DNA of 64,000 nucleotides from Hysterangium stoloniferum (taxonomy: Eukaryota > Basidiomycota > Agaricomycetes > Hysterangiales > Hysterangiaceae). Under the pieces are notes generated by a model. That model was given only the letters and a program-made list of their open reading frames with translations. It made no database searches and was not told where the DNA came from. How positions within the stretch are numbered: position 1 is the stretch's first letter; the number at the start of each line of letters is the position of its first letter. The DNA is taken from positions 62,001 to 126,000 of the forward strand of contig WHVD01000192.1 in NCBI GenBank assembly GCA_015178975.1. Reading direction: 5' to 3'. Shown in pieces: positions 3,352-63,631 of the stretch. The position numbers were made by a program, and so were the translations under genes.

Positions 3352-3637
3352 TATTGTAAAAGGTCGCAACTTGTAGACGCAGTGCCACTCAGGAAACTCC
3401 TGAGTGCGAGTAGAGGAGTGCGAGTAGACTGACTCTGTTGTTTTTCTATCGTACAATACCTATTTACTTTATACTAATCTACGTCCATTGTTCTATCTAA
3501 ATGAGTATAACAATGGGCATATATATCCACAGTCATGTGCCACTTAGAATAAGGGGCATAATAGGAATCTAATAATAGATTCAAGTAGTCGTTGTGCTCG
3601 GAGGTAATTCGACCGTTATTGTTCCCTTTTTACAACA
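3352..3637 (-). repeat. 3-prime LTR of young Copia element
   Basis: 286 bp, identical by eye to 7855-8140. The minus-strand start TGTTG follows the polypurine tract at about 3638-3650. The polyprotein stop codon (3581-3583) lies inside this LTR. Confidence 0.95.
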
Positions 3638-6600
3638 CTCCCCCTCGGTTGAATTATCAACGAGTCCAAGTCGTGATATTAAAGTGTTGTGTTGATCCCG
3701 TGGTAGTGATTTCGTGAAAACATCGGCAAGATTATTCTTAGTGTTGACTTCATTTACACTGACTGTCCCATCCATAATTTTTTCTCGGATGTAGTGGTAT
3801 TTAATATCGATGTGTTTTGTCCTCTTGTGATAGACATTGTTTGAAGCAATTGAGCGGGCACCAAGTGAGTCACTAAAGATATTAATTGGGAGGTCAATGT
3901 CGAAATAGAGTTGTTGGAGAAGGGATACAATCCACTGTGCATGTTTAGAGCATTCGGTGAGGGCCATGTACTCTGCTTCGGTCGAAGAGAGTGCGACAGT
4001 GCGTTGTCTCTGAGTAGCCCAGGTTACCGCCCCTCCTGTGAGCACAAATGTGTATCCTGTAGTTGATCGACAACTGTCTTTATCTCCTGCCCAGTCAGAG
4101 TCACTGTACCCGACCAGTTCTGTAGAGTCGTTTTTTCCATATGTAAGTTTGCGATGTTGTGTCGTAATGAGGTATTGCAGGGTGTGCTGAGCAGTGGCTA
4201 GGTGAGCAGATGTGGGGTTCGATCCATATTGTGATAGCTTGTTCACAGCATAGCATATATCTAGTCGTGTCCCTAGCATGGCATACATGAGGGACCCGAC
4301 AAGTTGTTGGTAATGTGACCTAGTCGTAAGATCGAATCCTGTCTCTGTATTGGATACAAGATTGGTTCCTGTGGGAAAGGGGGTGTATGCTGGCCGGCAG
4401 TTCTGCATATTGAAGCGATCGGCTATACGTTGTATGTAGTGGGTCTGGTCTATTGTGATAGTCCTTTTCGAACGGTTGCGGGTAATGTGAAGTCCCAGGA
4501 ATTGTTCGATTTCCCCTAGATCAGTATATTTATACTTGGAACCAATGAAAGCTTTCACATCTTGAATGTTTTTCAAGTTGCCAAAAATTGCCATGTCATC
4601 AACATATACTAGGATAATTGTAAACTCTCCCCCTTCGTTGTGACTCTTGAAAAAGATGGAGACATCCCCTGAAAGTAGCTTACTGTATCCGAAGCTTTCT
4701 AAAGTCCCTTGCAGGTGCTCATGCCATTGGCGCCCTGCTTGCTTCAAGCCATAGATCGCTTTCAGGAGACGACACACGAGTGTTTCCTTCCCAGGTACTG
4801 TGAAGCCTTGCGGTTGATCCATGTATATTTCTTCATTGAGATTCCCATTTAGATAGGCTGACTTGATGTCAATTTGGTGGATATCCCAGTCGTAGACAGC
4901 TGCCAATGATAATAAAAGTCGTAATGAGTCCAGACGAGCAACTGGAGCGAATGTTTCCTCATAGTCAATTCCTTCAGTTTGTGTGAACCCTTTCGCGACA
5001 AGCCGGGCCTTATATCTTGTGACTTCTCCCTGCGTATTTCGTTTCGTCACATACACCCATTTGTTCTTAACGGTGGTCCGGCCTTCTGGTAGACTGACCA
5101 GCTCCCAAGTCTTATTATCTGCTAGTGATGTGATTTCTTCATTCATAGCTTGCTGCCAAAGGTATGCTTCGGGTGTCTTCATGGCATAAGTGTAGGTGCT
5201 AGGATCTCCAGTTGGTGTAATACTCGCAGCAGCTATGAAGGCCTCTGGGGAATCATCCCAGGCATTGGCAACCCAGGGGCGTAACCCTTGTTGTATGTGT
5301 TCCCGATCAGGGTGTGCATTCATTGGATCGTTTCGCCGTATGCCCCGGTTCGGTCTGGTGGACCTACGAAGTGGTGGAAGTGGCTCTTCAGGCAGAGGTG
5401 TTGGAGGGGGTGCATTTGAGCGCGGCGATGTAGGTGTATGCACACTTGTATGTGGTGGTATGGATGTATACTCAGTTGCAGATGGAGAAACATGTTCCTC
5501 ATCATCGCTGTCAGGCAAGATGAGGTCTACAAGTTCAGTGCTTTGTGGTGTATCCAGGTTGGTTGGTTGAGACATGGAGGGGTGGAGGGGAAAAAGACTT
5601 TCATCAAAGATAACATCTGTGGAAGTGAGGAGTTTTTGTGTCTTGGGATCCCACAGTTGATATCCCTTTGTAGTAGGCTCGTATCCTGTAAAAATAAGTT
5701 TCTCGGAGGTGGCTTCAAGCTTGGTTCTAGGCGTCGTGATATGCCTATATGCAAGGCATCCAAAAACTCGAAGGTATGAGAGATCAGGGGCCTCTCCAAA
5801 GAGTCGTTCATGTGGGGAAAGGTAGTCATTTGCTCGTGAAGGTGCTCTATTTCTGACATGTGTAGCAGTAGCTATGGCACATTCCCAGAAGGTGTTTGGC
5901 ATCCCAGCTGACTTCAACATTGCCCTTGCGGCACCTGCAATAGTTCGGTTTGCTCTCTCAGCTACCCCATTCTGCTGGGGGGTGTATGGTGCAGTGAGCT
6001 CATGTTTTATACCTTTCTCATCTGTGAATGTTTTGAAGTCCTTAGATAAGAATTCCCCACCACGGTCAGAGCGAATGGCTTTTATCTCTGCTTGGAATTG
6101 AGTTAAGATATACACAGCAAAATACTTAAATTTTTGTATTGCTTGATCCTTAGTTCGTAGAAAGAAAATCCATTTGAAGCGTGTATAGTCATCTATAATA
6201 ATAAAATGATAGAAGCTTCCCTGTATTGACCGGGTTTGCATTGGTCCCGCAAGATCCATGTGGACTAGTTCAAAGGGGTTTGTTCTCCTTGTATGTGTAG
6301 TCTTAAAGGTCCTTCTCGTGGATTTTCCAAGTAAGCAGCCTTCGCATGTAGAGAGCCTGTGTGGAGAAGTGGAATCTATGTGATCACTGAGCTTCTGAAG
6401 AGTTGTCCAGGAGAGGTGTCCCAACCGGGCATGGAGAGTCTCAATTGGGATTTTCTTCTGGATTGAGTGAACTGTAGGCTTCGAGGAACGGAGTGTGATC
6501 CAGTATTGTTGTCCAATTAAAATCCCTTTTGCGCATGGAGCAGAATTCTTGCTGAGAGTAACAGTGTTTGTGAAAAAGGTGGTAGAGACCCCCTTTTCTC

Positions 6601-7759
6601 CTAGTTTCCGTATTGAAATGAACCTCCCATTAATGTTGGGCGAGTGTAGGACATTTGTTAATGTAATTTGTTTTTCAATCCCTTCGATTTGTGTAGTGGC
6701 TGCAACTGTGCCAATTCCAATGTAGGAGATTCGTGTGGTCCCATCTGCCAGGCGAATGTTTTCTGGTCTTGGCAGAGCTCGGTATTCTGAGAAGTCCGAG
6801 ATTTCGTGAGTGATGTGATCTGAGCATCCTGAATCTAACATCCATTTGGTTTCACGCGCAATGTAAAAGATAATGGCCTCGTTTGAGATTGACTTAACCA
6901 TTACATCGGTACTGCTAGGAGGTGGGGTATATGCTACCTCTTGTATTGATGCGCTCACAGTTGGTGTATCTTTCTCTTTCCCATCCTTCCCTACTTTCCA
7001 TTGCTTTCTCTCGCTCTGTGCCTCCTCCTTTGAAAGGCCACGCTGTTTGCGTCGGCAGTCTCTCTCCCAATGCCCCGGGGCGCCGCAGAAGTTACATGTA
7101 TCGTTAGTCCTCCTTTTCCCTTGTTTTATGGCGTTAACTGAGGTCGTTCCTTGTCGGAGTTCTTCAGATAGGATGCGGGCACGCATATTCGCAGAAGTGA
7201 GTGTCTTGTAGTCGCTCACGTTCGCTAGGATAGTTTGCTGGATTATTTCGTATGTGGGGGGTAGGGCGCGAAGGATAAGGAGTGCATGGAGGCTATCCGC
7301 AATGGGCATTCCAGCTGTTTCGATACGGGAGCGGTATTCAGACATCTCGTCTATCTGTTGCGTGAATGGGAGATCGGTTGTAATAGATGTATTGAAGTAT
7401 TTGGTGATGTCGACCCAAAGATTGAGTCCTGTGCGAGTGCCGTAAGTTTCTTGTAGTCTTTTCCAGTTGTCTGCAAGGCTCTCATCATCTTTGATAGATT
7501 GCCTGATCATTGGCTTGATTGCGAGTTGTATCAAGCCTAGTCCTTCGTCGTTTCGTCTGTCCCATTCGTTAATGGCCTGTGTTTCTTCACTCGTAGGGGT
7601 CTCAGGTGTTTTTGGTGTTGGGCGAGTCTCATTTCCCTCAGCAATGCGTAATATGTGTGTGAGGCGAAATGCACTTCGTACTGAATATGACCAATCTTCC
7701 CAATTCGTTCCATCGAATTTTTCAATTGAAGTTAGAAGTCTGGAAGCTGTTGATGACAT
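3581..7759 (-). CDS. Copia Gag-Pol polyprotein, intact
   Basis: A single frame of 1392 residues from the ATG at 7759-7757. A longer in-frame start exists inside the 5-prime LTR, but this methionine begins the Gag-like N-terminus. In order: a Gag domain; a zinc knuckle CNFCGAPGHWERDC (222-235); a protease motif DSGCSDHIT (309-317); an integrase HHCC zinc site (about 443-475) and catalytic D502, D565, E601 with the signature QQNGVAERANRT; a reverse transcriptase with YVDD (1052-1055); and RNase H (SDSDWAGD, LSSTEAEY, then the ADVFTKSL tail). The order protease-integrase-RT-RNase H is diagnostic of Copia. No stop or frameshift is present, so the element could be autonomous. The protein makes cDNA in virus-like particles and integrates it. 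Confidence 0.96.
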   Translation of the reverse strand: MSSTASRLLTSIEKFDGTNWEDWSYSVRSAFRLTHILRIAEGNETRPTPKTPETPTSEETQAINEWDRRNDEGLGLIQLAIKPMIRQSIKDDESLADNWKRLQETYGTRTGLNLWVDITKYFNTSITTDLPFTQQIDEMSEYRSRIETAGMPIADSLHALLILRALPPTYEIIQQTILANVSDYKTLTSANMRARILSEELRQGTTSVNAIKQGKRRTNDTCNFCGAPGHWERDCRRKQRGLSKEEAQSERKQWKVGKDGKEKDTPTVSASIQEVAYTPPPSSTDVMVKSISNEAIIFYIARETKWMLDSGCSDHITHEISDFSEYRALPRPENIRLADGTTRISYIGIGTVAATTQIEGIEKQITLTNVLHSPNINGRFISIRKLGEKGVSTTFFTNTVTLSKNSAPCAKGILIGQQYWITLRSSKPTVHSIQKKIPIETLHARLGHLSWTTLQKLSDHIDSTSPHRLSTCEGCLLGKSTRRTFKTTHTRRTNPFELVHMDLAGPMQTRSIQGSFYHFIIIDDYTRFKWIFFLRTKDQAIQKFKYFAVYILTQFQAEIKAIRSDRGGEFLSKDFKTFTDEKGIKHELTAPYTPQQNGVAERANRTIAGAARAMLKSAGMPNTFWECAIATATHVRNRAPSRANDYLSPHERLFGEAPDLSYLRVFGCLAYRHITTPRTKLEATSEKLIFTGYEPTTKGYQLWDPKTQKLLTSTDVIFDESLFPLHPSMSQPTNLDTPQSTELVDLILPDSDDEEHVSPSATEYTSIPPHTSVHTPTSPRSNAPPPTPLPEEPLPPLRRSTRPNRGIRRNDPMNAHPDREHIQQGLRPWVANAWDDSPEAFIAAASITPTGDPSTYTYAMKTPEAYLWQQAMNEEITSLADNKTWELVSLPEGRTTVKNKWVYVTKRNTQGEVTRYKARLVAKGFTQTEGIDYEETFAPVARLDSLRLLLSLAAVYDWDIHQIDIKSAYLNGNLNEEIYMDQPQGFTVPGKETLVCRLLKAIYGLKQAGRQWHEHLQGTLESFGYSKLLSGDVSIFFKSHNEGGEFTIILVYVDDMAIFGNLKNIQDVKAFIGSKYKYTDLGEIEQFLGLHITRNRSKRTITIDQTHYIQRIADRFNMQNCRPAYTPFPTGTNLVSNTETGFDLTTRSHYQQLVGSLMYAMLGTRLDICYAVNKLSQYGSNPTSAHLATAQHTLQYLITTQHRKLTYGKNDSTELVGYSDSDWAGDKDSCRSTTGYTFVLTGGAVTWATQRQRTVALSSTEAEYMALTECSKHAQWIVSLLQQLYFDIDLPINIFSDSLGARSIASNNVYHKRTKHIDIKYHYIREKIMDGTVSVNEVNTKNNLADVFTKSLPRDQHNTLISRLGLVDNSTEGECCKKGTITVELPPSTTTT

Positions 7760-7840
7760 GTTCTGATTGTCGCAAGATGGGTGTGTGTGTGCTGTAGGTA
7801 TTGTCAGGTAGGAATAGTATTTTATAAGTGCGTTAGGCAG

Positions 7841-7854
7841 CGGGGCCCATAACC
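7841..7854 (-). promoter_or_regulatory. primer-binding site, initiator tRNA-Met half
   Basis: The minus strand reads GGTTATGGGCCCCG immediately after the 5-prime LTR. This complements the anticodon arm of eukaryotic initiator tRNA-Met, the internal half-tRNA priming known from Drosophila copia, not the tRNA 3-prime acceptor end. The same motif abuts other LTRs here (about 27610-27623, 53971, 55053). Confidence 0.8.
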
Positions 7855-8140
7855 TATTGTAAAAGGTCGCAACTTGTAGACGCAGTGCCACTCAGGAAAC
7901 TCCTGAGTGCGAGTAGAGGAGTGCGAGTAGACTGACTCTGTTGTTTTTCTATCGTACAATACCTATTTACTTTATACTAATCTACGTCCATTGTTCTATC
8001 TAAATGAGTATAACAATGGGCATATATATCCACAGTCATGTGCCACTTAGAATAAGGGGCATAATAGGAATCTAATAATAGATTCAAGTAGTCGTTGTGC
8101 TCGGAGGTAATTCGACCGTTATTGTTCCCTTTTTACAACA
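7855..8140 (-). repeat. 5-prime LTR of young Copia element
   Basis: 286 bp, identical by eye to 3352-3637, followed on the plus strand by target duplication CACCT. It should carry the element promoter. Confidence 0.95.
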
Positions 8141-27760: not shown

Positions 27761-28748
27761 TGTTAAGAGCAGAAAACTGACTGATATTGGTTGACCGACA
27801 GGGACCAAATGGAAGGACTTGGCTTCAGCTTATGTGCTGCACCCTCACAAGTTACCATCAGGTGTCCTTAAATTTTGGGTGGGCAGAAACTAGTCCTGTC
27901 AAGTCAACCTCTCGGTAAACTACCGATCGGAAACTGAAGGATAAGTCGAGGGTTGGGCTGAGGGGTTGGAGACTGAGAGTCGGAAACTGAGAGTCGGAGA
28001 CTGAGAGAGTCAGAGACTGAGAGAGTCAGAGACTGAGAGAGTCAGAGACTGAGAGAGTCAGAGACTGAGAGAGTCAGAGACTGAGAGAGTCAGAGACTGA
28101 GAGAGTCAGAGACTGAGAGAGTCAGAGACTGAGAGAGTCAGAGACTGAGAGAGTCAGAGACTGAGAGAGTCAGAGATTAGAGGTTGAAGTCATAAATGTA
28201 GGTTGAATCATAAATCGGATGGAGTCGGAATGTGGGGGTCATGAATAGATAATGGAGTCAGAAATTAGAGGGGTATCTAAGTCGATCTAAGTTGATATTC
28301 TGATTGTCTAGTAGTTACATTACAGCGGGTCTTATATATGAGTTATCGGCGTCTAGAAACTACTAACTAAGGGAAGAGTGGAAACACTATTTGACAAATA
28401 GACTTGACTAGAAACTGGAAAGTTACGATAAGATCGGAAGCCGAGATTTAGCTGAGAGCAGGATTACGAGAAAAGGGAATAGTCCACAGGCTACAAGTAT
28501 ATATGGGCATATGTGAAACATAGAGTAAAATAGATCATCATAATGAAAAGGGACGTATCAAAGCATAACCAGATAGTACGAGTATATTTTGACAGGGGTG
28601 TAAATGAGGTTTGATCGCCATGAAGGTATACATCAGCATCGGTGTTCCGAGGTTGCCGAAATAATGACTTGATAACTTGGAACATTGATAGACGGTAGTA
28701 TTCTCAGGGACCGTCAGATTGCGACATGGTTACGACATGGTCGTAACA
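27761..28748 (-). mobile_element. solo LTR (TGTTA...TAACA family) with internal minisatellite
   Basis: 988 bp from TGTTAAGAGC to GTCGTAACA with a perfect 5-bp target duplication CTATT (27756-27760, 28749-28753), inserted inside the right LTR of the decayed Copia. It shares the block GGACTTGGCTTCAGCTTATG with the LTRs at 30752, 54396, 56695 and 62716. Orientation is opposite to the three copies at 54-63 kb. Confidence 0.92.
27997..28174. repeat. 16-bp minisatellite inside solo LTR
   Basis: About eleven near-perfect copies of GACTGAGAGAGTCAGA follow two or three shorter degenerate units (GACTGAGAGTCGGA). The related LTR at 62716 has a different 16-bp array at the equivalent place, and the copy at 54396 has only a few degenerate units. 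Confidence 0.92.
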
Positions 28749-35796: not shown

Positions 35797-38700
35797 TTAT
35801 GCCCTCAAAAGTGCCGGAGCGTTTCTAAGGTCAGCACTGCTTAACCACGAATCCTCCTCGGGTCCATAACCTTTCCAGCACACCCTAAATAGCAGACGAT
35901 TTCGCTGTTTCCTATGTCCAACAATAGCTTTGACTTCATATTCTTTGTGATCTGATTTCAACTCTCTTAGGTTCTCAAGTTGGGGTCTCGGACCTAGCTT
36001 GGAAGGAGAGAGTCGATATTTCTGCAGATGATCCCGATTAATGACTGGATGCATAGGATACTCCGGGGGAATCTTAAGCCTAAATACTTGAGAGTTCAAT
36101 TTCTCAAGGACCTCGAATGGTCCAATCCGTCTTTGTATCAGTTTCTTCCCCAGTTCCCTTGACTTCCACCAGTTCGAGGGAGTGGGGGTTCACTAATACA
36201 AAGTCTCCCTCAGAGATATCTTCTACGGGTCTTTGCTTCTTGTTATATGCTCGTGCTTGAATCTCTTGGGCTCGAGCGATGGAATCCCGCGCCATCTGCC
36301 GATGATTTTCTAGCTCGAGGATCCATTGGTCGGCCATAGGGCTGTCTGATAGTTCTCTAGGAACTAGGGGCTCGTCACCTCCTAGAACTCGAGACATTCC
36401 TCTTGGGAGGTATCCCATTAATAAGAAGGCCGGGGCGTAGTTTGTGGAACTGTGAACAGTCGAGTTGTATGCGTGAACAACTACCTCAATCCACTGGGAC
36501 CAACTTTCTTTAGCAGAGGCACAATAGGCTCGAAGCATCTGTTCTATGGTCGCGTTCATATTCTCCGTTTGCCCATCCGTTTGAGGATGATGAGCCGAAG
36601 ATACCGCAAGGGTGGTACCATAGATCTTACAGACTTCCTGCCAAAACCTGCAGGTCCATCTCTTATCCCGGTCACAGATTATTCGAGAGGGCAGTCCGAA
36701 GGGGCTTGCTACCTGTTTGACAAATATTCGTGCGAATCCTTCAGCGGTAAGGTTCGAAAAGGTAGGTATTGTAATAGCGTAGCGCGTCAATTTATCAACG
36801 GCAACGAAGACTGCGGAATACGAATCCTTTCCTGAATCGGGTAGTCCAGTGATCAAGTCCATAGAAACTACCTCGAATGGCCTAAAAGGTACGTCAGCCG
36901 GTCTGAGGGCTCCTTGACGAGCGGTGCGATCGACTTTGGTTTTTTGGCAGATATCGCAGGTACGCGCGTACGACACGCAATCTTGTAGCATTCTCGGCCA
37001 AAAGAACCGGTCTTTCATCAGGTTGAACAACCGCTGGCCTCCTGGCGTGTGCTCCCTCAAAAGGGTTATCATGCACCAACCTTAGAATCGAGTTAATCAT
37101 GGTTCTGGGTACACAGACTCGACTTTTCCAGTCCGAGTCGCGAAAGTACAGGAGTCGGTTTGCTCCCACGAAGTAGTGAGAAGGAGTAACAACTGCGTTG
37201 GGTGAAGGGGTATCTAAAGCATAGAGATTCCTGAAAACCGGGTCCTTTGAATAACCCTCTAGAAATTTCTTTATATATCCCTCCTCGATGCTGATTAGTA
37301 GCTGAGGATGACGCAATGCGAAGTCGGACTCGTCTTCCTGGTCATTCCTTATTGCGTTATGAGTATCCCATTCTGACCGTCGGACCTTTTGAGTTACTCC
37401 AAAAGGCTCCATAGAATCGAGTATGGTAGAGAAGACCGCTTTCTTAGCGGGTTCGTCTTTCCATAGTTTTTCCTCAGTATTCTTGTCCAGAGAAGTCGAG
37501 GTGATAGCCTGCAAATCATCTCTAATAGGGCTCACGAAGGCTGGTACCCGAGGGAGTCTGGACAGTGGATCCACGTTGCTGTGAACTCTCCCTGCTCGAT
37601 GCAAAATCTCGAGACCTGGAAATGCAGCGTATATCGCCCCCCATGCGGCTAGTCGATGATTAGTGTTCTTGTAAGATCTAGCCCATTGCAGAGCTGCATG
37701 GTCCATAATGAGCAGGACATGTTCACCTTCAATGAAAGGTTGAAAGTGGACCAGTCCCTCCTTTGCTGCTAATGCTTCCCGTTCAGTAGCAGAATAGTTA
37801 CGCTCCGCGCTTTTCAGCGTGCGACTCCAATATGCAATGACTCGTTCAACAGTAACTTCGGTCGCCTCAAAAGTGGATCCCCACGAATCCGACCACTCAA
37901 TCTCGGGCTGTTTGGTTTTGTACCGATGAACAAAGGATGGCACGTCCTGCGCACGGTCAAAAGCCAATTTGGCTTGGGCGTAGATTTTTGTATCCACTAA
38001 ATCTCCTAAAGCCATCTTCTGGACTTGTTGGAGGCAACAACCCAAGGCAAAATCCGAAGCGTCCGTATACAATCGGTAGGGCATCCCACTAACTGGATGT
38101 CCCAACACTGGAGCTGATCCTAATGCGGTTTTAACATCCTCATAAGCTCGGACATGTTCAGCAGTCCACGTCCAAGGTGTTCCCTTTTTTAGGAGCGAGA
38201 ATAAAGGGGACACCATCCATGAATAAAATGGTATATATGCTGAAAAGTAAAGGACCATTCCAAGAAACCGTTGTAGATCAGAAACCTTAGTGGGTGGGGC
38301 CAATTCCAATATAGCGCGAACCTTTTCTTGATGGGTTGAAAAACCCAGCCTAGATACTTTATGACCCAATAACAATATCGAATTATATCCGATAAAACAT
38401 TTCTTGGGAGAGAGAGTAATACCGGCCGAAGCGATAGCGCCAAGCACCTGATTCAGGTGAAGCAAATGATCATCCCAGTTCTTAGAGAATATGACTATGT
38501 CATCGATGTAGACTAAACAAAAAATCCACAAGTAGGGTGCTAGAACAGTTTGCATGACGCGCTGAAATGTAGAGGGGCCGTTTCTGAGCCCAAATGGCAT
38601 CCTTTTAAATTGCCACAGCCCTCTATGGGATCTAAAGGCTGTTTTGGGCTTATCGTCCTCCAACATTTCTAATTGAGTAAACCCGGCCAGCGCATCGAAA

Positions 38701-40970
38701 GAAGAAAGAACATTTGACCCCGACAGCGCTTGCATAATCTCCGATTGACGTGGTAAAGGGAATTCATCTGGAACAGTGAGATGGTTAAGTTTCCGATAGT
38801 CGATGACCACCCGCGGTTTACCATTGCGATATACTACAAAGGCTGGCGCTCCCCAGGGGCTTTTAGATGGCTCAATGACACCCTGTTCGAACCAGGTATC
38901 CATTTGCTCGTCTATAACTCTCCTATTGGCAGGGGACGAGGGGAACATAGGCATGGATATGGGCTGAGCGCCCTCTTTCAAGGGGACAGGGACTCTACAT
39001 TCCACTTGCCCTAACCGTCCGTCGACTCCGAAAGCCTTAACGTTCTCAGTCAAAACTGATCTGAGACGTGGCAGGACCTCCGTTGGTATATCCGGTCCCA
39101 AATTGACTAACTTGTGAAGATCCTCTGAGGCAAATTTCTCATTATCAGCCACTGCAGCCGTCTTAGGACCAGGCGGTTCGAAATCGTCTGCAATCTCTGG
39201 TTCAACAGGTGGCTTAGGTCTTTCTGAGGCGACTTGACGGTCCTCCTCAAGTTGAGAGAGACTTTCAATAAGGTGTGCGATCTTGGTCGCGCCTGCTACC
39301 ATTAAACCTTTCTCCTCGAGTGACCTGGGCTTGTGAGCCCAACGAGCAGGGTCATGAATTATCCCTATTGTCTCCCCTCGTCGGATAGTCTTAGGGGTTA
39401 GTGATGGATTGGCTAAAGGTACTGCCGCACTATTCCTTGAAATTGCCGTGATTGGTGTGGCTAATATAGAACCGTCCTCGTTTTGCAGTACAATTCCTTC
39501 AACAATCCATTCCTCGCCCTTTAGATCTTCAACAAAAATAGGCACTAGTCTGGCTGACTCTGGATCGATAGTGCAATCCTCCAAGGCTTGCGCGACTCTT
39601 TCAGTACGCACACCTTTATCGGGGAGAGAGGTGAGTTTGGATGACTCCTTCTCATGCTTCCCGAAAGGGGCCTTATTGACGGTGAAGGTCAAAGGTTGAG
39701 GTTCCTTAGAAGAGCTGGCTGGAATAAAACCCTGTCGTCCCGGGAGAATAAGTCTAGATCCCAACGGCTGATCTCTTAGAGTACCAATTTCATAATTAAT
39801 ATGGAAGTCTTCTCCCAAAAGAATTGGCACCGTCATTCCTCTAACGACATAAGTTTCAGCCGCAAACTTCAGTAACGTTCCACTGTCGTCCTCCAGGTAA
39901 ATGGGGACATTAACATATCCGATAACCTTAGCGTTACCCGTGAGCTGAATTAGACGTAATTTGAGTCCTTGTTTCAACTTATACATGCCCTGCAGTTCCT
40001 TGTAGAATTCCTCCGATATAAGGGAAAGATCCGCTCCCGTGTCCATTCGAATTTTAACGCGTTTGGGTGAATCGGGAGTTCCTACATGACCGAAAACATG
40101 GAGCACTGCAACTCCTATGCTAGAGTAACCACTGGGAGGATCCCGTTTTCGATAAAGGATTGTAGTATCCTCCTTCATCAGACGACTGGGACGAGGGTAT
40201 TGGATTCGAGGCCTCTTACTTTCCTTGCGCAGGGACAAGATTACGTTCCTGCGTTCACTTCGGCAAGGAACACGCTTCGAAGGGGAATCCAATACTGGAT
40301 CATCGTCGCTGTCCTCCGAATCCGAATTCTCATACGGTAGTAAATCGGGGGGGTTCCCGGGATCAAACGGGAACGTGTCAACATCAGCTCCAGGCGAACA
40401 GAGCGAATTCAAACTGATTTGTTCATGAGAATCTCCAGTCTGACAGTAGTCCTCGGTCAGGCCTTCAAGGTCCTGCTGATGAACACTCAGCCGGTCTCCT
40501 TTTTCGAAGAAATCTGCGGCGAGTATGGATATGTAAGCTTCTGACAGAAGAGCTTCACCAGTCGTTTGATTTTCCTCCCTCACTAATTTGTCTTCGACAG
40601 GGGGCGAATAAACGGAAACAAAAGTCAATTCGTCATCAGAGTTATTTACTTGTCCTTGTATAGATAGTCCATGAACCGCTTCATATAACCTTTGCTCCTC
40701 AGCTTCCTCCGACATATCCTGTGCGGAGCATTTGTTGATGGAGACATAATGAGACATTTTGCCAGCTTGAGGGCAGTCTATCTTAAAATGCTCCGGACTT
40801 CCATATATCCAACATTCCTTGGTGGGTTTGATCGAACTCCTCTTGTTACTCCTCTCAAAGAACATTTTTCCATGACGCTTTCCCTGTTTTGGATCAGCGA
40901 CGTCTGGAACGGTCCTTCTCGTCGAGCCTCTCTCGTTAGTCTCACTAATGAGAATATGGTTAGGTGAAGA
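35797..40970 (-). pseudogene. chromovirus Pol with chromodomain, frameshifted
   Basis: The main frame (40865-36894) starts near a zinc knuckle with one cysteine changed (CWIYGSPEHFKIDC). It contains a protease (MDTGADLSLI), a long linker, a reverse transcriptase (VVIDYRKLNHLTVPDEFPLP, then LVYIDDIVIFS) and RNase H (LYTDASDFALG). A frameshift near 37045 moves integrase into another frame: zinc ligands ending CDICQKTK, catalytic SMDLITGLP, a degenerate DRDKRW, and HPQTDGQTEN. A second shift near 36140 leads to the C-terminal chromodomain (EYEVKAIVGHRK, WKGYGPEEDSWLS; 35797-36099). Chromodomains of such elements steer integration to marked heterochromatin. Gag and Pol lie in different frames and overlap at 40778-40865. 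Confidence 0.92.
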
Positions 40971-42430
40971 GGAAAGACTCTAAAATCCAATTCTTGACCC
41001 TCCGATAACATTACACGCGGTTTCTGGAACCTGTAACGTTCCCGGTGTGTTTGGACCCAAGCGTTAATCAGAGCTTCTTGCAGGTTATTAGCATAAGTCT
41101 GTAAACTCATGATATTATCGATGGGTTGTCCTTGAAGAAGGTAGAGCCATTCCGTAGGCAGTGTGAGAATGAGTCTGCGTGTCTCATCCCCTCTGTCCTG
41201 GTGGAACCCGTACAGGAAACGATAAAGTTTAACTCTCCGTTGGATATAGTGGACGGGTGTCTCACGATCATGACCAGCCTGTCGAAATTTCATAGCTTCC
41301 CATTCTAAGGCTAAGGATTCACGCCAACGAGTTCCGAGCAATCCTTCGACGATACCCCAAAGAAACGACCCATGAGATTGACTGAATTCAGTACGATGCT
41401 CACGGTCTAAGGTGCTCCACCAGACCTTAGCGTGCCCCTTGAGTCATCTTGGCAGAGCAACTCCTAAGATCGCACTCATAGAGTCTGATATCTCCGCGAG
41501 ACTCATGATATCCATGATATAGTCCAGGGCTTCGGATTGAGCTCCATCGTATTCAGGGAGATCAGACCATTTGATCTTGAGGTCGTTGGTGTTAAGAGTG
41601 ACCTTCTTGTCCTTAGGTAAGTCGTCAATAAGTGCGCTAGCTCGAGACCGCATCAGAGTTCGAAAAGGGGTATTAGGCACTCCATTGTGGCGTTCCCCAC
41701 GTCCTGAGTTCCCTCCCCGGTCTGAAGTATTCGAACTCCCAGATGAATCGCTAGGGGGTCCTCCTGATGGCAAGAAAGGGTTTGAAGCGATCGGTAGAGA
41801 ATGGCGGGGACCGTCTGGATTAAGCGATCCTCGACCAGCAACTGGGCCAGCTATGCCCTCAGTAAATGCCGTGGAGAAGGACGGTCGACCCTTGTTGGCG
41901 ACTGATCGGTTTCTGAGAGTGGTCGCTTCATCCCTGAAGTTAGGGCTGTTGGAGACTCCCTCAAATGCGACGCGAGAGCGGTGATCTCCCTGGAAAGACG
42001 TTAGGCCTGGTTCCATCGCGATTTGTCTCTCGATCTCCGTCACATTCAGAAGTCGACACGGCTGGGGTTGATGGAAGGGAGCGCAGACCTCAATCCTCTT
42101 CTCCTGAAGGCGTTCTATTACTTGTGTCCTCAAATCCAGTGGAAAATCCTCCAATATTACAGGACGGTTGAGAGAATGCAGAAAACGAGTATCAGGGGAC
42201 CCGTTTAAGTTGCGAACAAACGAATTGGTCGTGGAGATAGGCGAATCAGGGACCTGGATCGAGTCGTTATAGGGGAGGAGTACCTCTAAAACCATCTTAT
42301 CAAGTCTTCTTTGGTTTCGCTTCAACCGACCTCTTAAAGTGAGGTATGCCAGCGATAGATTTGGCGTGACTCCATTGAGAGACTCCTCCAACATACGGAT
42401 GTACATGTACTGGTAGTCAACCTTAGGCAC
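40778..42430 (-). pseudogene. chromovirus Gag, one in-frame TGA
   Basis: A single frame from 42430 to 40778 is broken only by TGA at 41444-41446 in the context ALPR-stop-LKGHAKVWW. Both sides are in the same frame, and the downstream part has the typical Gag core (STLDREHRTEF, GTRWRESLALEWEAMKF, YIQRRVKLYRF). CGA to TGA is the simplest cause. The methionine at 42430 lies only some 20 bp from the truncation point, so the true N-terminus may be lost. Confidence 0.85.
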
Positions 42431-45174: not shown

Positions 45175-45909
45175 ATGAGAAGCAAAGTGCATCCATTGGA
45201 TCGTTTAACCCGCCGGATAAATCCCTGGTCGACGGAATGTATGTAATTTATAATGAAACCTATGACAAATAACTAACTATTGGTACAAATACCGAAAAGA
45301 TATTCATCCGCCGGCCAGAACAAAGCAAATCTAGATCTCAGACCATCGTGGGAAGGGGAGTTACACCCCACTCCTTATGGTGGGAGAAATGACCGTAGTG
45401 AACCGAACGGAGAATCGTCCGCGGGTCCTATGGTTACCCCACAAGGTCTGACATCCCCACCTCCGAAATGCCCTTCATATTCAACCGCCAAACCCTCACC
45501 ATCCGCATTTCCCCCTCACTGCCCCTGGGGCGGTATCTACCTTTCCGACGGAAACAAATACCGCTGTATGTATACGCTGGATAGCCAAAGTGACACCCAG
45601 ATCCTGGAGCATTGGGCGCGGGAGCACGTCGCCAATGAGATATTTGCCTTCCGTACTGGAGTCATCACAGAGTGGGATCAAGCTTGTTTCCTGAACACTC
45701 CGCAGAAGTTGTGGAATGCTATCTCGGATCTGGGGATATGTCCAAATGAACCTTGCGTAGGGGAGGTGTTTAAGGCGACAGGCGATAGGGAGGAAATGAT
45801 TCATAGCCACCTGTTGAAACACCCAGAGTGCGAGCCTGCCTTCACGGTTCCGCCAAACAGAGGGTATATGGACATGGCCGCACAGCTCGGATATGACGAT
45901 CCTCGCTGA
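44035..45909 (+). CDS. nine-exon zinc-finger-like protein, all introns phase 2
   Basis: Exons 44035-44207, 44267-44326, 44390-44488, 44550-44660, 44715-44765, 44822-44917, 44969-45109, 45158-45238 and 45300-45909 join without a stop into 473 residues. All eight introns (51-64 nt) interrupt the third position of a codon, so each of the seven internal exons is a multiple of three. The N-terminal two thirds is Ser/Thr/Pro/Asn-rich. The last exon carries two Cys/His clusters: C-P-W-G-G...C...HWAREH, and C-x4-C...H-x-H-x3-H-x2-C (DREEMIHSHLLKHPEC). These resemble C2H2-type zinc fingers. An upstream in-frame TAA at 43990-43992 is CAA in the copy at 60 kb, so the ancestral start may lie near 43896. 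No family is recognised; a nucleic-acid-binding role is only a guess. Confidence 0.65.
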
Positions 45910-47716: not shown

Positions 47717-48308
47717 TCAGCGAGGATCGTCACATCCGAGCTGTGCGGCCATGTCCGTATACCCTCTGTTTGGCGGAACCGTGAAGGCAACCGTGAAGGC
47801 AGGCTCGCACTCCGGGTGTTTCAACAGGTGGCTATGAATCATTTCCTCCCTATCGTCCGTCGCCTTATATATCTCCCCTACGCATGGTTCATTTGGACAT
47901 ATCCCGAGATGCGAGAGAGCAGTCCATAACTTCTGCGGAGTGTTTTGGAAACAAGCTTGATCCCACTCTGCGATGACTCTAGCCCGGAAGGCAAATATCT
48001 CGTTGGCGACGTGCTCTCGTGCCCAATGCTCCAATATCTGGCTTTCGCTTTGACCATTCAGAGCATACATACAAGAGTATTTCCTTCCGTCGGAAAGGAA
48101 GATACCGCCCCAGGGGCAGTGAGGAGGAAATGAGGTTGGTGAGGGTTTGGCGGATAAACGCAGTGGGGACTTTTTAGGTGGAGATGCCAGACACTGTGGG
48201 GTTACCATAGGACCCGCGGACGATTCTCCGCTCGGTTCACTACAGTCATTTCTCCCACCATAAGGAGTGGGGTGCAATTCCTCTTCCCACGATGGTCTGA
48301 GGTCTTTA
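47717..48308 (-). pseudogene. inverted partial copy of the zinc-finger-like gene
   Basis: This is the minus-strand counterpart of exon 9 of the gene at 44035. It reads open from DLRPSWEEELHPTPYGG through the same Cys/His clusters (HCPWGGIFLSDGRKYSC; DREEMIHSHLLKHPEC) to an equivalent stop. A four-residue repeat (AFTVAFTV) has arisen. Upstream exons 1-8 are missing. An internal ATG near the HPTP segment could start a product of about 186 residues, but there is no evidence of a promoter. It has many amino-acid differences yet no stop, so it may still have been under constraint for some time. Confidence 0.6.
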
Positions 48309-48392
48309 ATTGATTGTATTTTATAATGAAATCTATGACAAATAACTAACTATTGGCACAAATACCCGAAAATATATTCATCCGCCGGCCAG

Positions 48393-54395: not shown

Positions 54396-54970
54396 TGTTA
54401 TGACCTGTGCGCTTGGCACACTGTTGGCACTGATCAGACCTCACGCAAACTCCAGTCACTTGCAAACCATTGGTATCCCAACTAACCCCATTAAGCACCT
54501 TCATTGTTCCCGATTGGTATTTCCATCTGCCCCTTATTCTATACAACCACTTTACATCCAGATTTATAATGTTCCATCTGTTGGTCTCCATCTTCATGTC
54601 ACTCTATATGTAGTTCCACCTTCTCCATTAGTACTTTCCTTTGTTCTGTTCTCATTTGGACAAGTGCCAGTTTTCCATATATAAGCCACTCATGTATTGT
54701 AGTATTAGGACAATCAGAATATTGACTCAGAACACTCCTTATAGTCTTGCTCTAAATATTCCGCTCTCCACCTCTGCTTGCACTCACTCACTCTTGGTCT
54801 CCAACCCTTTGACCTCCAACTATCCTTTGGCTTCCAATCAGTGACTTACCGAGAGGAATACACAACAGGACTAGTTTTCCACCTGCCCAAAATTTAAGGA
54901 CACCTGATAGTAACTTGTGAGGGTGCAGCACATAAGCTGAAGCCAAGTCCTTCTGTTTAGTCCCCATCAC

Positions 54971-55052
54971 TAATGGTTAACACCCCTGCTATATATGCAG
55001 AAGCCCTGGGTTCAATCCCCAGTCTGGCCATTCATTTTCTACACTTTTAACA
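54971..55052 (+). repeat. 5-prime terminal repeat of miniature element
   Basis: 82 bp, the same in every base as 55254-55335. It carries the B-box word GGTTCAATCC but only part of the A box, because the upstream bases come from the host LTR. Confidence 0.88.
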
Positions 55053-55065
55053 GGTTATGGGCCCC
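55053..55065 (+). promoter_or_regulatory. primer-binding site of miniature element
   Basis: GGTTATGGGCCCC abuts the terminal repeat and is complementary to the anticodon arm of initiator tRNA-Met, as in both Copia elements of this window. Confidence 0.75.
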
Positions 55066-55241
55066 GCTGTGTGCTATAGGGCATGGTTCCTGTGTGTAGA
55101 GTGAACAGCTATATTTGTGTGTGGTATAGTGGACAAGTCTGGACAAAAGAGCCAGAGAGGACCTATATCTGCTTATAGTATAGTTGAGTGCTAGCATTAA
55201 GGGAGTGTGTTAGATTGAGTAATGCTAGCAGTGCTTCCCAG

Positions 55242-55313
55242 GGTCAGGTGGTGTAATGGTTAACACCCCTGCTATATATGCAGAAGCCCTGGGTTCAATC
55301 CCCAGTCTGGCCA
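55242..55313 (+). ncRNA. tRNA-like cloverleaf spanning internal/LTR boundary
   Basis: The stretch folds as a complete tRNA. Acceptor GGTCAGG pairs with TCTGGCC over seven pairs including two G-U; the D stem is GTGT/ACAC; the anticodon stem is four pairs with loop TATATAT; the T arm CTGGG-TTCAATC-CCCAG is perfect; the discriminator is A. The A box (TGGTGTAATGG) and B box (GGTTCAATCC) match polymerase III consensus, and T4 runs follow within 10-25 bp. The loop has A where tRNAs have U33, so it is probably not a decoding tRNA (a UAU anticodon would be read formally). The first 12 nt lie in the internal region and the rest in the 3-prime repeat. It could be a promoter, a processing site, or a captured tRNA. 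Confidence 0.7.
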
Positions 55314-55335
55314 TTCATTTTCTACACTTTTAACA
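55254..55335 (+). repeat. 3-prime terminal repeat of miniature element
   Basis: 82 bp identical to 54971-55052. The preceding bases AGGGTCAGGTGGTG are purine-rich and could act as a second-strand primer, though they are not a clean purine tract. Confidence 0.88.
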
Positions 55336-55379
55336 ATCACTCTACCAACATCAGTCAGTTTTCTGGTATTAACACTAAT

Positions 55380-56694
55380 ATAAATGGAGAGATTTTCTGA
55401 CTGAGGTCCTTTGCTCTTTCATTGCCCTTTTATGCCTTTTTTCATTAACCTATGATTAAACTATGACCTATGAATGAAATCATATATGACATTGAAATGA
55501 GATAAGTCAAATGTAAGTCAAATTAATTTGAGGGTGTCAAAGATGTCAAATAGAATGTCGAGTCAGAATTTGTGTTGAAGATAAATCAATGTGTCAAAGA
55601 TGAGTTGAAGAGTTGTTGAAAGTTACCTTGAATATTTTGTGACAATGTTGTGACAGTGACAGTTGTGACAACAGGCTCCAGAACCAGCCCATAAGCCCTA
55701 AGCTTAACACTCAGGTCATATAAAGTATGTATGTTTGGATAAATAGTTGAGACTAAATTCTCCCCTGTGGTCCACACAGCATGTGTCAATTGTACTAGAT
55801 TTTTTGGGTTTGCGAACAATGTAGCATGTGATTGATGGGTAACCGGGTATAGTATTACTGGTAGTAGGTACTTAAACTAGGTACTTGTACTCTAAACTTC
55901 ATACGTTTTCAACGTGTTCTATCTACCAAAACCGAGTCAAGTGTATTACGAACTCGCGAATTCTAACAAATTGTGAATCACAGTGAATCACACTGTATCC
56001 AGTTCCTGTTTGAGCTTCTGCATCCTCTAATCTCCCTGCTGCCTATGGAAACTCTTCAAGATTGACCTAAAGAGATGAGTCATTGTTTTCAGCCTTGCTA
56101 GCTGTCAGACACAACACTTGTTTGGCAACAGTCCCAGAACTTGTAGCTTGGCTGCCAAAAAACTGCTCATCTTTGGGATCCCCAAGATCTTCAATTATTG
56201 CATTTGAGGATTTGCATGTGGCTGCCTTAAATGAAGAACAAGATGCCTCATCCCTTGTTTTAGATGTGCCATTTGGGTGGGCATTCTGTTCACAAAGATG
56301 GAGGAAACACTGTAAAGCTAGTATAACTGAGACACTGGACACAACAGGTGAATCAGTGGGATATTACCAGGTAATAAAGCCATCTAACCCATAAGACCAG
56401 GCTTGGAGGATGGTCACATTTTATTGAATATACAAAATTTCACTGAATAATCCTCATATTTTTAAGTAAGACTATTCCTTCTGGCTGTTACGACCAGAAT
56501 TCCAGCCAGACTCCAGGCACTAACTTATATGCACCCGTGCCCTATACACACTGATTCTCAGTTTACCGGAATTCCCACTGGACTCTGTACGTCAGACTTG
56601 TCCACATTCAACTTTGTTACATCCCATATCAGTCACCGGAATACCCGCCAGACTCTGTCCCTCCTAGATTATTTGGGTTAACCTAGATTATTTG
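55380..56694. other. repeat debris, no supported gene
   Basis: Frames at 56083-56394 (+) and 56067-56342 (-) are open but carry no recognisable motif. 56416-56480 holds the roughly 80-bp repeat also found at 30.55 and 61.55 kb. At about 56486-56660 lies a partial LTR start (TGTTACGACCAGAATTCC...) that duplicates 56695-56875. A word TTATTTGGGTTAACCTAGA follows and recurs at 57.52 and 61.73 kb. Confidence 0.45.
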
Positions 56695-57519
56695 TGTTAT
56701 GACCAGAATTCCTGCTGGACTCCAGGCACTAACTTATATGCACCCATGCCCTATACACACTGATTCTCAGTTTACTGGAATTCCTGCTGGACTCCATACA
56801 TCAGACTTGTCCACATTCGACTTTGTTACATCGTATATCAGTCACCGGAATACCTGCCAGACTCCGTCCCTGTCTATGTCTGACCTCATCCCACACATCA
56901 GTCACTGGATCTTACTCAGAAAACCTGTCATCTCTCTAACTGAGCCCCATTCCCATTTTAGTGAAATGACCTGTCACAATTTGGACTCCGCTCCCGCTCT
57001 GTTTCCCATTATGGTTTATGATTTGTCACAATTCGGACTCCACTCCATTCCATCCCGTTCCTAACACCAAATTTGGTGTTTACTATTCTCATTTTATGTT
57101 TTGCTAGTTTCATTTCATCATTACTGGATTTGATATGTTATTCATTCCATGGTCTATATAGTCTGGCAGATGTTGTACATACAATCCAGTCAGAAAATCA
57201 GCTTAGATTCCCCCCAGTAATCTAATACATTTTCTGCTCTCAACTCCTCCTTGAATTACACTGCTCTCACTAGTGGGAGCCCACAGGCTCCAACGCATCT
57301 ATCTCTCTTATTTAACTCAACTCCCCGACCTCTCAATCCACGACCTCTGACCTACAACCCCTTGACCCATGAACCCTGTCTGGACTCCCCGGGATTCCCA
57401 TCTGCCTGTCTGAAATTGGACAACACAACCTCGTGAGGGCACAGCCTATAAGCTGAAGCCAAGTCCTACCGGATATCCTGCGGGTTTCTCTGGAAACCCA
57501 TTGTGTACGTACCCTAACA
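56695..57519 (+). mobile_element. solo LTR (TGTTA...TAACA family)
   Basis: 825 bp from TGTTATGACCAG to TACCCTAACA with a perfect 5-bp target duplication ATTTG (56690-56694, 57520-57524). It contains the family block TATAAGCTGAAGCCAAGTCC. It is the same orientation as 54396 and 62716. Confidence 0.88.
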
Positions 57520-62715: not shown

Positions 62716-63631
62716 TGTTAGGACTGGAAAGCCCGCTGGGTTCCGGACCCCATCCTATATGCACCTGACTCTCTCTACCCACCAGGTTACAGTAAAACTG
62801 GACGACCCCCCAGGGCCCAGATGTCAAACCTCTCTATGCTTGACCCACTGTGTCTTACACACCAGTCATTGGACTCTGCCAGGACCTGGCATGTCAAGCC
62901 TGCCTATCTCTGACTCTGTCTCACATACCAGTCACTGGACTCCTGGACAACCCATCAGCTCTCTAACTGAGCCCCATTCCCATTATGGTCAAATGACCTG
63001 TCATGTTTTGGACTCTGCCTCCATTCCATTCTGTCCCTAACACCTATTTTGACGTTTACTTGTTTAGACTTTCATTATTACTGGATGTGGTATTGCATAC
63101 ATTTCACAGTCTATAGTATAATCTAGCTAATGTTTGTACATACAATGCAGTCAGAAAATCAACTAAGTTTACAACTTCGAACTCCCTCAGTAGCTAGCAT
63201 ATATCCCACTCTATATCCCACCTCTCATCTTTGTAACACAACACTATTGACCTATTGATTCTCTGACCTATTGACTGTTCAACATATCAACTGCTCAACA
63301 TATCAACTGCTCAACATATCAACTGCTCAACATATCAACTGCTCAACATATCAACTGCTCAACATATCAACTGCTCAACATATCAACTGCTCAACATATC
63401 AACTGCTCAACATATCAACTGCTCAACATATTGACTGCTCAACATATTGACTGCTTGACCTCTCAATCTATCAGCTACTCCCGGACTCCCTGGGTGTCCC
63501 ATCCACCTGTCTGAAATTGGACACCATGATCTCATGAGGGTGCAGCCTATACATAAGCTGAAGCCAAGTCCTACTGGATTATCTGCAGGTTTCTCCAGAG
63601 ACCCTCCATCAAGCCTGCCCATCCCTTAACA
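62716..63631 (+). mobile_element. solo LTR (TGTTA...TAACA family) with minisatellite
   Basis: 916 bp from TGTTAGGACTGG to ATCCCTTAACA with a perfect 5-bp target duplication GGACA (62711-62715, 63632-63636). It shares TAAGCTGAAGCCAAGTCCTA with its relatives and carries the array at 63273-63453. Confidence 0.9.
63273..63453. repeat. 16-bp minisatellite inside solo LTR
   Basis: About eleven copies of CTGCTCAACATATCAA, the outer ones degenerate (CATATTGACTG). The unit length equals that of the array in the LTR at 27761 but the sequence is different. Confidence 0.92.

Follow-up and report, generated by a model that had tools for sequence, protein, structure and literature searches.

The 365-bp element at positions 54971-55335 of the window, a stretch of 64,000 nucleotides from the genome of Hysterangium stoloniferum, is in view of the whole evidence best explained as one insertion of a Helenus-type TRIM, with an LTR that contains tRNA-derived sequence; we put the probability of this reading at about 0.92. 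The class is already published: TRIMs with tRNA-derived sequence in the LTR were named Helenus in 2024 by Kojima (PMC10886601). Two details are unusual here, namely left ends that are truncated recurrently at one base and composite insertions in which the TRIM is joined to Copia-type sequence at a common primer site. Each is a natural record of mechanism, and together they provide testable evidence on how promoter-bearing mini-elements borrow the Copia machinery. The family is young and multi-copy and adds to the known set of Helenus-type elements.

Anatomy of the window copy

Repeat comparison of the window gives two direct repeats of 82 bp, 100% identical, at 54971-55052 and 55254-55335. They bound an element of 365 bp in total, which is flanked by the target site duplication (TSD) ATCAC at 54966-54970 and 55336-55340 (read from the sequence and checked by script; all features of the element are on the forward strand). 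An earlier note on this DNA had reported these repeats, the ATCAC duplication, an initiator-Met primer site and a tRNA fold at 55242-55313, and all four are borne out. It had also taken 82 bp as the length of the LTR and 55208-55253 as internal sequence; comparison of copies instead gives an LTR of 128 bp, and this segment belongs to a complete 3′ LTR at 55208-55335 (TGTTA...TAACA). The 5′ LTR (54971-55052, from repeat match and copy comparison) consists of LTR positions 47-128 only, that is, a complete LTR minus its first 46 bp. The internal region of 155 bp (55053-55207, by reference to the canonical copy L004) begins with the primer binding site (PBS) GGTTATGGGCCCCGC at 55053-55067, whose 15 nt pair with the anticodon half of iMet tRNA, as judged from iMet-like matches in the genome. 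It ends with the polypurine tract AAGGGAGTG at 55199-55207, recognized by inspection, which adjoins the 3′ LTR at the edge defined by copy comparison.

The tRNA-like sequence occupies LTR positions 35-106 (72 nt, 55242-55313), as indicated by ARAGORN, Rfam, folding and LTR alignment. Within it, box A (TGGTGTAATGG, 55249-55259) and box B (GGTTCAATCCC, 55292-55302) are placed by LTR comparison, following the customary definition of the boxes. The purine-rich CAGGGTCAGGTGGTG at 55239-55253, immediately 5′ of base 55254, is a proposed secondary site of plus-strand priming, a role suggested by four TSD-flanked copies. Downstream of the tRNA, LTR comparison reveals a TTTT run at 55318-55321, a possible weak Pol III terminator, and a second one at 55328-55331 close to the LTR end. 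The cloverleaf had been thought to be completed by 12 nt of the internal region; these nucleotides at the start of the tRNA are LTR sequence, and the whole tRNA lies within the 128-bp LTR. In the truncated left LTR of the window copy, box A is missing its first five bases.

Copy number, edges and target site duplications

The genome searched comprises 111 Mb in 554 contigs, the window being C104:62001-126000. The 365-bp element has at least 46 matches, of which at least 43 are full-length with 98-100% identity; 40 of 517 candidates were scored. A 53-mer from the LTR end matches 261 places and a 51-mer from the internal region 73 places, each with up to 3 mismatches, and the reversed patterns used as controls match none. 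Many copies share an extension upstream of the first repeat, which starts with TGTTAGATTGAG or TGTTAGTTTGAG and ends with GGTGGTG. The canonical copy is 411 bp long (128-bp LTR, 155-bp internal region, 128-bp LTR; reference copy L004).

Among the loci read, an exact 5-bp TSD flanks 39 of 42 full copies, all four tandem arrays and 16 of 19 solo LTRs; a place seen in more than one view was counted once. These loci are a non-random set, made up of the best matches to the window copy, the listed pattern matches and 20 stretches around internal copies. The class of full copies includes L040, with a complete left LTR, a right LTR cut to positions 92-128 and the TSD TTTCA; that of solo LTRs includes L039, where the LTR is followed by a PBS, so that it is not a true solo LTR. 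Outside the counts are 6 other loci with an LTR-internal-LTR arrangement, 16 classed as other and one LTR fragment, all of which are truncated copies, composites or fragments. Both LTRs are identical in 27 of the 42 full copies, which indicates that the family has been active recently. The earlier note had proposed further dispersed copies, each with its own 5-bp duplication, as a check on a mobile element, and this is what the 261 LTR ends and the site-specific TSDs amount to.

These edges bear on the possibility that the family has an 82-bp LTR and that the tRNA is completed across the border between internal region and LTR. Such an arrangement matches the look of the window copy and of three others; however, the left edge of 42 full copies and 19 solo LTRs is at LTR base 1 (TGTTA), which lies 46 bp to the left of the supposed start, and exact 5-bp TSDs abut this base in 55 of 61 cases, making it very improbable. 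The presence of the full fold in the 3′ LTR only, previously regarded as part of the design, is a trait of the 5′-truncated copy: by Rfam score the tRNA is complete in every LTR of L004, L009, L019 and L100.

The tRNA-like sequence and its possible role as promoter

ARAGORN calls a tRNA with anticodon TAT at 55242-55313, and an Rfam scan places a match to RF00005 at the same coordinates with 46.8 bits (cut-off 29, E 7e-7). Free folding of this segment also yields a cloverleaf (-26.7 kcal/mol, z -2.18), with 7 of 200 shuffled sequences folding equally well. Sixteen of 20 loci scanned have at least one Rfam tRNA match, in L098 and L110 in one of the two LTRs only; L034, L042, L094 and L096 have none at the gathering score. 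No Rfam family other than tRNA reaches the gathering score in the window or in the 20 loci. Across 55 distinct LTR sequences, the pairs of the acceptor, D and T stems are formed in 52 to 55, pair 27-43 in just 5, and the main form of the loop, TATATAT with A at base 33, is found in 43. Working tRNAs have a nearly universal U33, and the LTR sequence is for this reason probably not a decoding tRNA.

An ordinary tRNA gene accompanied by a local 82-bp duplication, which the earlier note had named as a refuting case together with a lack of further copies, would agree with the calls of ARAGORN and Rfam. It is at odds with the 261 dispersed LTR ends, with TSDs that vary from site to site, and with the unusual loop and the rarely formed pair 27-43, and its probability is practically negligible.

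The tRNA-like part, with its boxes A and B, probably acts as an internal Pol III promoter from which the RNA would start inside the 5′ LTR. Cutting of the RNA by RNase P/Z, which the earlier note had also raised, would be a further possible role of the fold. Variability among the 55 distinct LTRs is 0.015 in box A, 0.030 in box B and 0.048 in the rest of the tRNA, and the two boxes together are less variable than sites drawn at random from the tRNA (permutation p 0.011, a test that ignores the relatedness of the copies). The LTR tail contains no promoter box, yet is as invariable as the boxes (0.018). Box B reads GGTTC in the main form; box A, TGGTGTAATGG, fits TRGCY in part only. The first TTTT run separates two groups of LTRs, CATTTTC... 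(70 of 132) and CATTATC... (49 of 132), with an otherwise unchanged tail. Of the 132 LTRs, 73 have both runs 3′ of the tRNA, and every one has one or more. Such four-T runs could stop Pol III before the PBS, and if they stop the fungal enzyme, few transcripts would reach the PBS.

According to a different view, the tRNA-like part is inert baggage, transcription is by Pol II and the fold has no role in expression. This is consistent with the TTTT runs and with one tandem array that has inserted almost without tRNA sequence. In L096 (C520:240971-242061), four LTRs lack most of the tRNA and the array has the TSD TTTAT; the LTRs are of two subtypes with one common deletion junction at CCCAG. As the array is flanked by a TSD, the tRNA is not an absolute requirement for insertion in every case. 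Only four of 54 pattern matches in the genome have the exact tRNA-less junction, all four within this array, and no second exact case occurs among the 54. The other 50 have two mismatches, and most of these read AATT, like tRNA-bearing LTRs with one T-loop base changed; C29:122715 (GTTT) and C38:21797 (CATT) lie outside the matches examined. An ancestral tRNA-less LTR that later received a tRNA was also considered and rejected, since deletion is simpler: the C520 LTRs have retained the 3′ strand of the acceptor stem, and in tRNA-bearing LTRs the junction CCCAG is present at both edges. The tRNA can thus be lost but, judging by this pattern, the loss has not spread. The restriction of the exact junction to four LTRs of one array against 261 LTR ends, the lower variability of boxes A and B relative to the remaining tRNA, and the precedent of Cassandra (as cited in PMC10886601) all speak against inert baggage, which we regard as unlikely though not far-fetched. 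Pol III transcription is unproven for the published Helenus elements too (PMC10886601).

Recurrent truncated left ends

Four insertions begin exactly at LTR base 47 (TAATGG) and have four different TSDs: the window copy L003 (ATCAC), L001 (GTTTT), L011 (GAAGG) and L016 (GTCCG). The right LTR is complete in all four. A genome-wide exact search, which would miss copies that have G three positions before TAATGG or deviate in any way from the pattern, finds six places where the canonical base at this position is absent; four of the six are the truncated copies, and the other two read ATG and look like point changes in a full LTR. The truncated copies make up 4 of 47 TSD-flanked full, tandem or truncated copies in this non-random sample. 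No paper on TSD-flanked truncated left ends was found by title or beginning of abstract in the open-licence PMC literature. The truncation misled the first reading of the element, yet it is recurrent and informative.

In standard reverse transcription, the left end of the LTR is set where plus-strand DNA starts beside the 3′ LTR. This start is primed at the polypurine tract (PMC10085805). Inside the tRNA, the purine-rich CAGGTGGTG before TAATGG is similar to the normal site, AAGGGAGTG before TGTTAG. For the window copy, the probable start of plus-strand synthesis is GGTCAGGTGGTG|TAATGG in the 3′ LTR and not AAGGGAGTG|TGTTAG. Priming at TAATGG would give a new left LTR that starts at base 47 and has a damaged box A, together with a complete right LTR. 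Misplaced plus-strand priming at a purine-rich site in the tRNA is the account that most simply explains the truncated left ends.

The same ends could be due to deletion after insertion or to a truncated master copy. The left and right LTRs of L016 differ at one base, the TTTT/TTAT subfamily site, which fits this alternative and counts against simple mispriming, as mispriming by itself leaves the difference unexplained; template switching may account for it. Deletions, however, would have to have run precisely up to the TSD on one side and to one and the same LTR base on the other, four times over. A master copy would not transmit its truncated 5′ LTR, because the new 5′ U3 is copied from the 3′ LTR in the standard course of reverse transcription. 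We consider deletion or a master copy improbable and favor misplaced priming.

Primer site, Copia and composite insertions

Three iMet-like matches in the genome, identified by a search with a pattern drawn in part from general knowledge, are complementary to all 15 nt of the PBS in a stretch that spans the anticodon. This 15-mer occurs exactly 240 times in the genome, its reversed control not at all. In view of the 73 TRIM internal regions (at the threshold of up to 3 mismatches) and the three iMet-like matches, well over half of the 240 probably lie in other elements. One of these is in the window itself: an apparently complete Copia element on the reverse strand (3352-8140, from ORF and domain scans and repeats), with a 15-nt PBS at 7840-7854 identical to that of the TRIM. 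It has identical 286-bp LTRs inside an identical 290-bp repeat, LTR ends TG...TA (with TA instead of CA at the right end), the TSD AGGTG and an ORF of 1436 aa with gag, integrase and RVT_2 domains. This element is a candidate for the type of helper involved.

The window has further features of its own. A Gypsy-type polyprotein is split over two frames at 36104-40979 on the reverse strand. Two similar ORFs of 210 aa lie in inverted orientation at 45277-45909 (forward) and 47717-48349 (reverse), and a Pfam scan of the former gives no match. Arrays of 16-bp tandem repeats and a 209-bp partial tandem repeat are distributed among 27968-28176, 63274-63455 and 56486-56871.

Eight TRIM internal regions have no alignable TRIM LTR on the left, and the break is at the PBS. 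In L108, the left sequence ends in what appear to be the 3′-terminal 14 nt of a TRIM LTR, and this locus may therefore be a truncated LTR and not a composite; the other seven end in foreign sequence. Outer TSDs are present in both composites examined for them. L079, of about 1.7 kb, comprises in order a foreign LTR, the TRIM internal region, the TRIM LTR, a PBS, a Copia-type gag and the start of the same foreign LTR, with GCCAT at both outer ends. L078 comprises a coding end, a foreign LTR, the TRIM internal region and the TRIM LTR, and is bounded on either side by ACAAT, over a distance of about 4.7 kb (the interior was read in part); the coding end is presumed to be Copia-like from a familiar motif. 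TRIM internal regions joined at the PBS to other left sequences are also seen in L039, L049, L080, L097, L106 and perhaps L108, and in L080 the PBS follows directly on the end of a Copia polymerase-like sequence that is interrupted by stops. The composite flanks that were compared resemble the window Copia in essentially the PBS alone.

Composites of this kind are expected if molecules packaged together become joined by strand transfer at a shared PBS. Of the present evidence they support mobilization by Copia most directly, and with the shared PBS they suggest that the TRIM is probably moved by Copia elements. Reverse transcription of the RNA would take place in Copia particles with the anticodon half of iMet tRNA as primer, and the Copia integrase would insert the cDNA to give the 5-bp duplication. 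The earlier description of a non-autonomous mini LTR element mobilized by Copia thus stands as regards the element and its TSDs; its Copia part, judged from the composites and their TSDs, is probable.

These observations can be combined into a single reading, which we hold to be slightly better than an even chance. The purine-rich 5′ part of the tRNA would serve as a second plus-strand primer, so that some insertions are born promoter-damaged, with a left end inside box A, and the Copia integrase would accept this end starting with TA. Through the shared iMet PBS, strand transfer could join the TRIM to Copia elements unrelated to it, the composites being direct records of shared particles.

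Comparison with known systems

The likeness to Helenus is drawn from the published description rather than from family sequences, and no paper on Helenus beyond Kojima 2024 was found in the open-licence PMC literature. Helenus elements are shorter than 1000 bp and have two LTRs with tRNA-derived sequence inside, as do the canonical 411-bp copy and the 365-bp window copy, with the tRNA at LTR 35-106. Fungal members have a 5-bp TSD, seen here even in all four truncated copies, and a PBS that is mostly complementary to the anticodon loop of iMet tRNA (the commonest type), here over 15 nt. A polypurine tract before the 3′ LTR (AAGGGAGTG at 55199-55207) and solo LTRs are likewise shared. Of the promoter boxes, box B agrees in the main form and box A partly. 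The Copia link of fungal Helenus is represented by the shared PBS and the composites, without one helper being singled out; in the published case it rests on sequence similarity and TSD length (PMC10886601). Copia composites joined at the PBS and TSD-flanked 5′-truncated copies go unmentioned for Helenus in the portion of PMC10886601 used here.

Like tRNA-headed SINEs (SINE2), this family has a probable tRNA-derived promoter in a short non-autonomous element. SINEs are inserted by target-primed reverse transcription. They are devoid of LTRs, a PBS and fixed 5-bp duplications of the integrase type (PMC10886601 and general knowledge), whereas all three are present here. The LTRs, solo LTRs and fixed 5-bp TSDs speak against a SINE.

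Cassandra, a plant TRIM (PMC7215508; PMC10886601), also has a small-RNA-gene promoter in its LTR and forms tandem arrays with shared LTRs. In contrast to the 5S rRNA sequence of Cassandra LTRs in plants, the LTR here contains a tRNA-like sequence and, by the Rfam scan of the window and 20 loci, no 5S rRNA. The earlier idea of a tRNA counterpart of Cassandra is thus apt as a description but not as a new class, Helenus being already published. The closest parallel for the proposed helper is the pair LTR-1_PTrit and Copia-9_PGr, a fungal Helenus tied to a Copia element (PMC10886601). In that pair the whole internal portion is shared (198 + 12 bp), whereas in the present family the link consists of a shared PBS and composite insertions.
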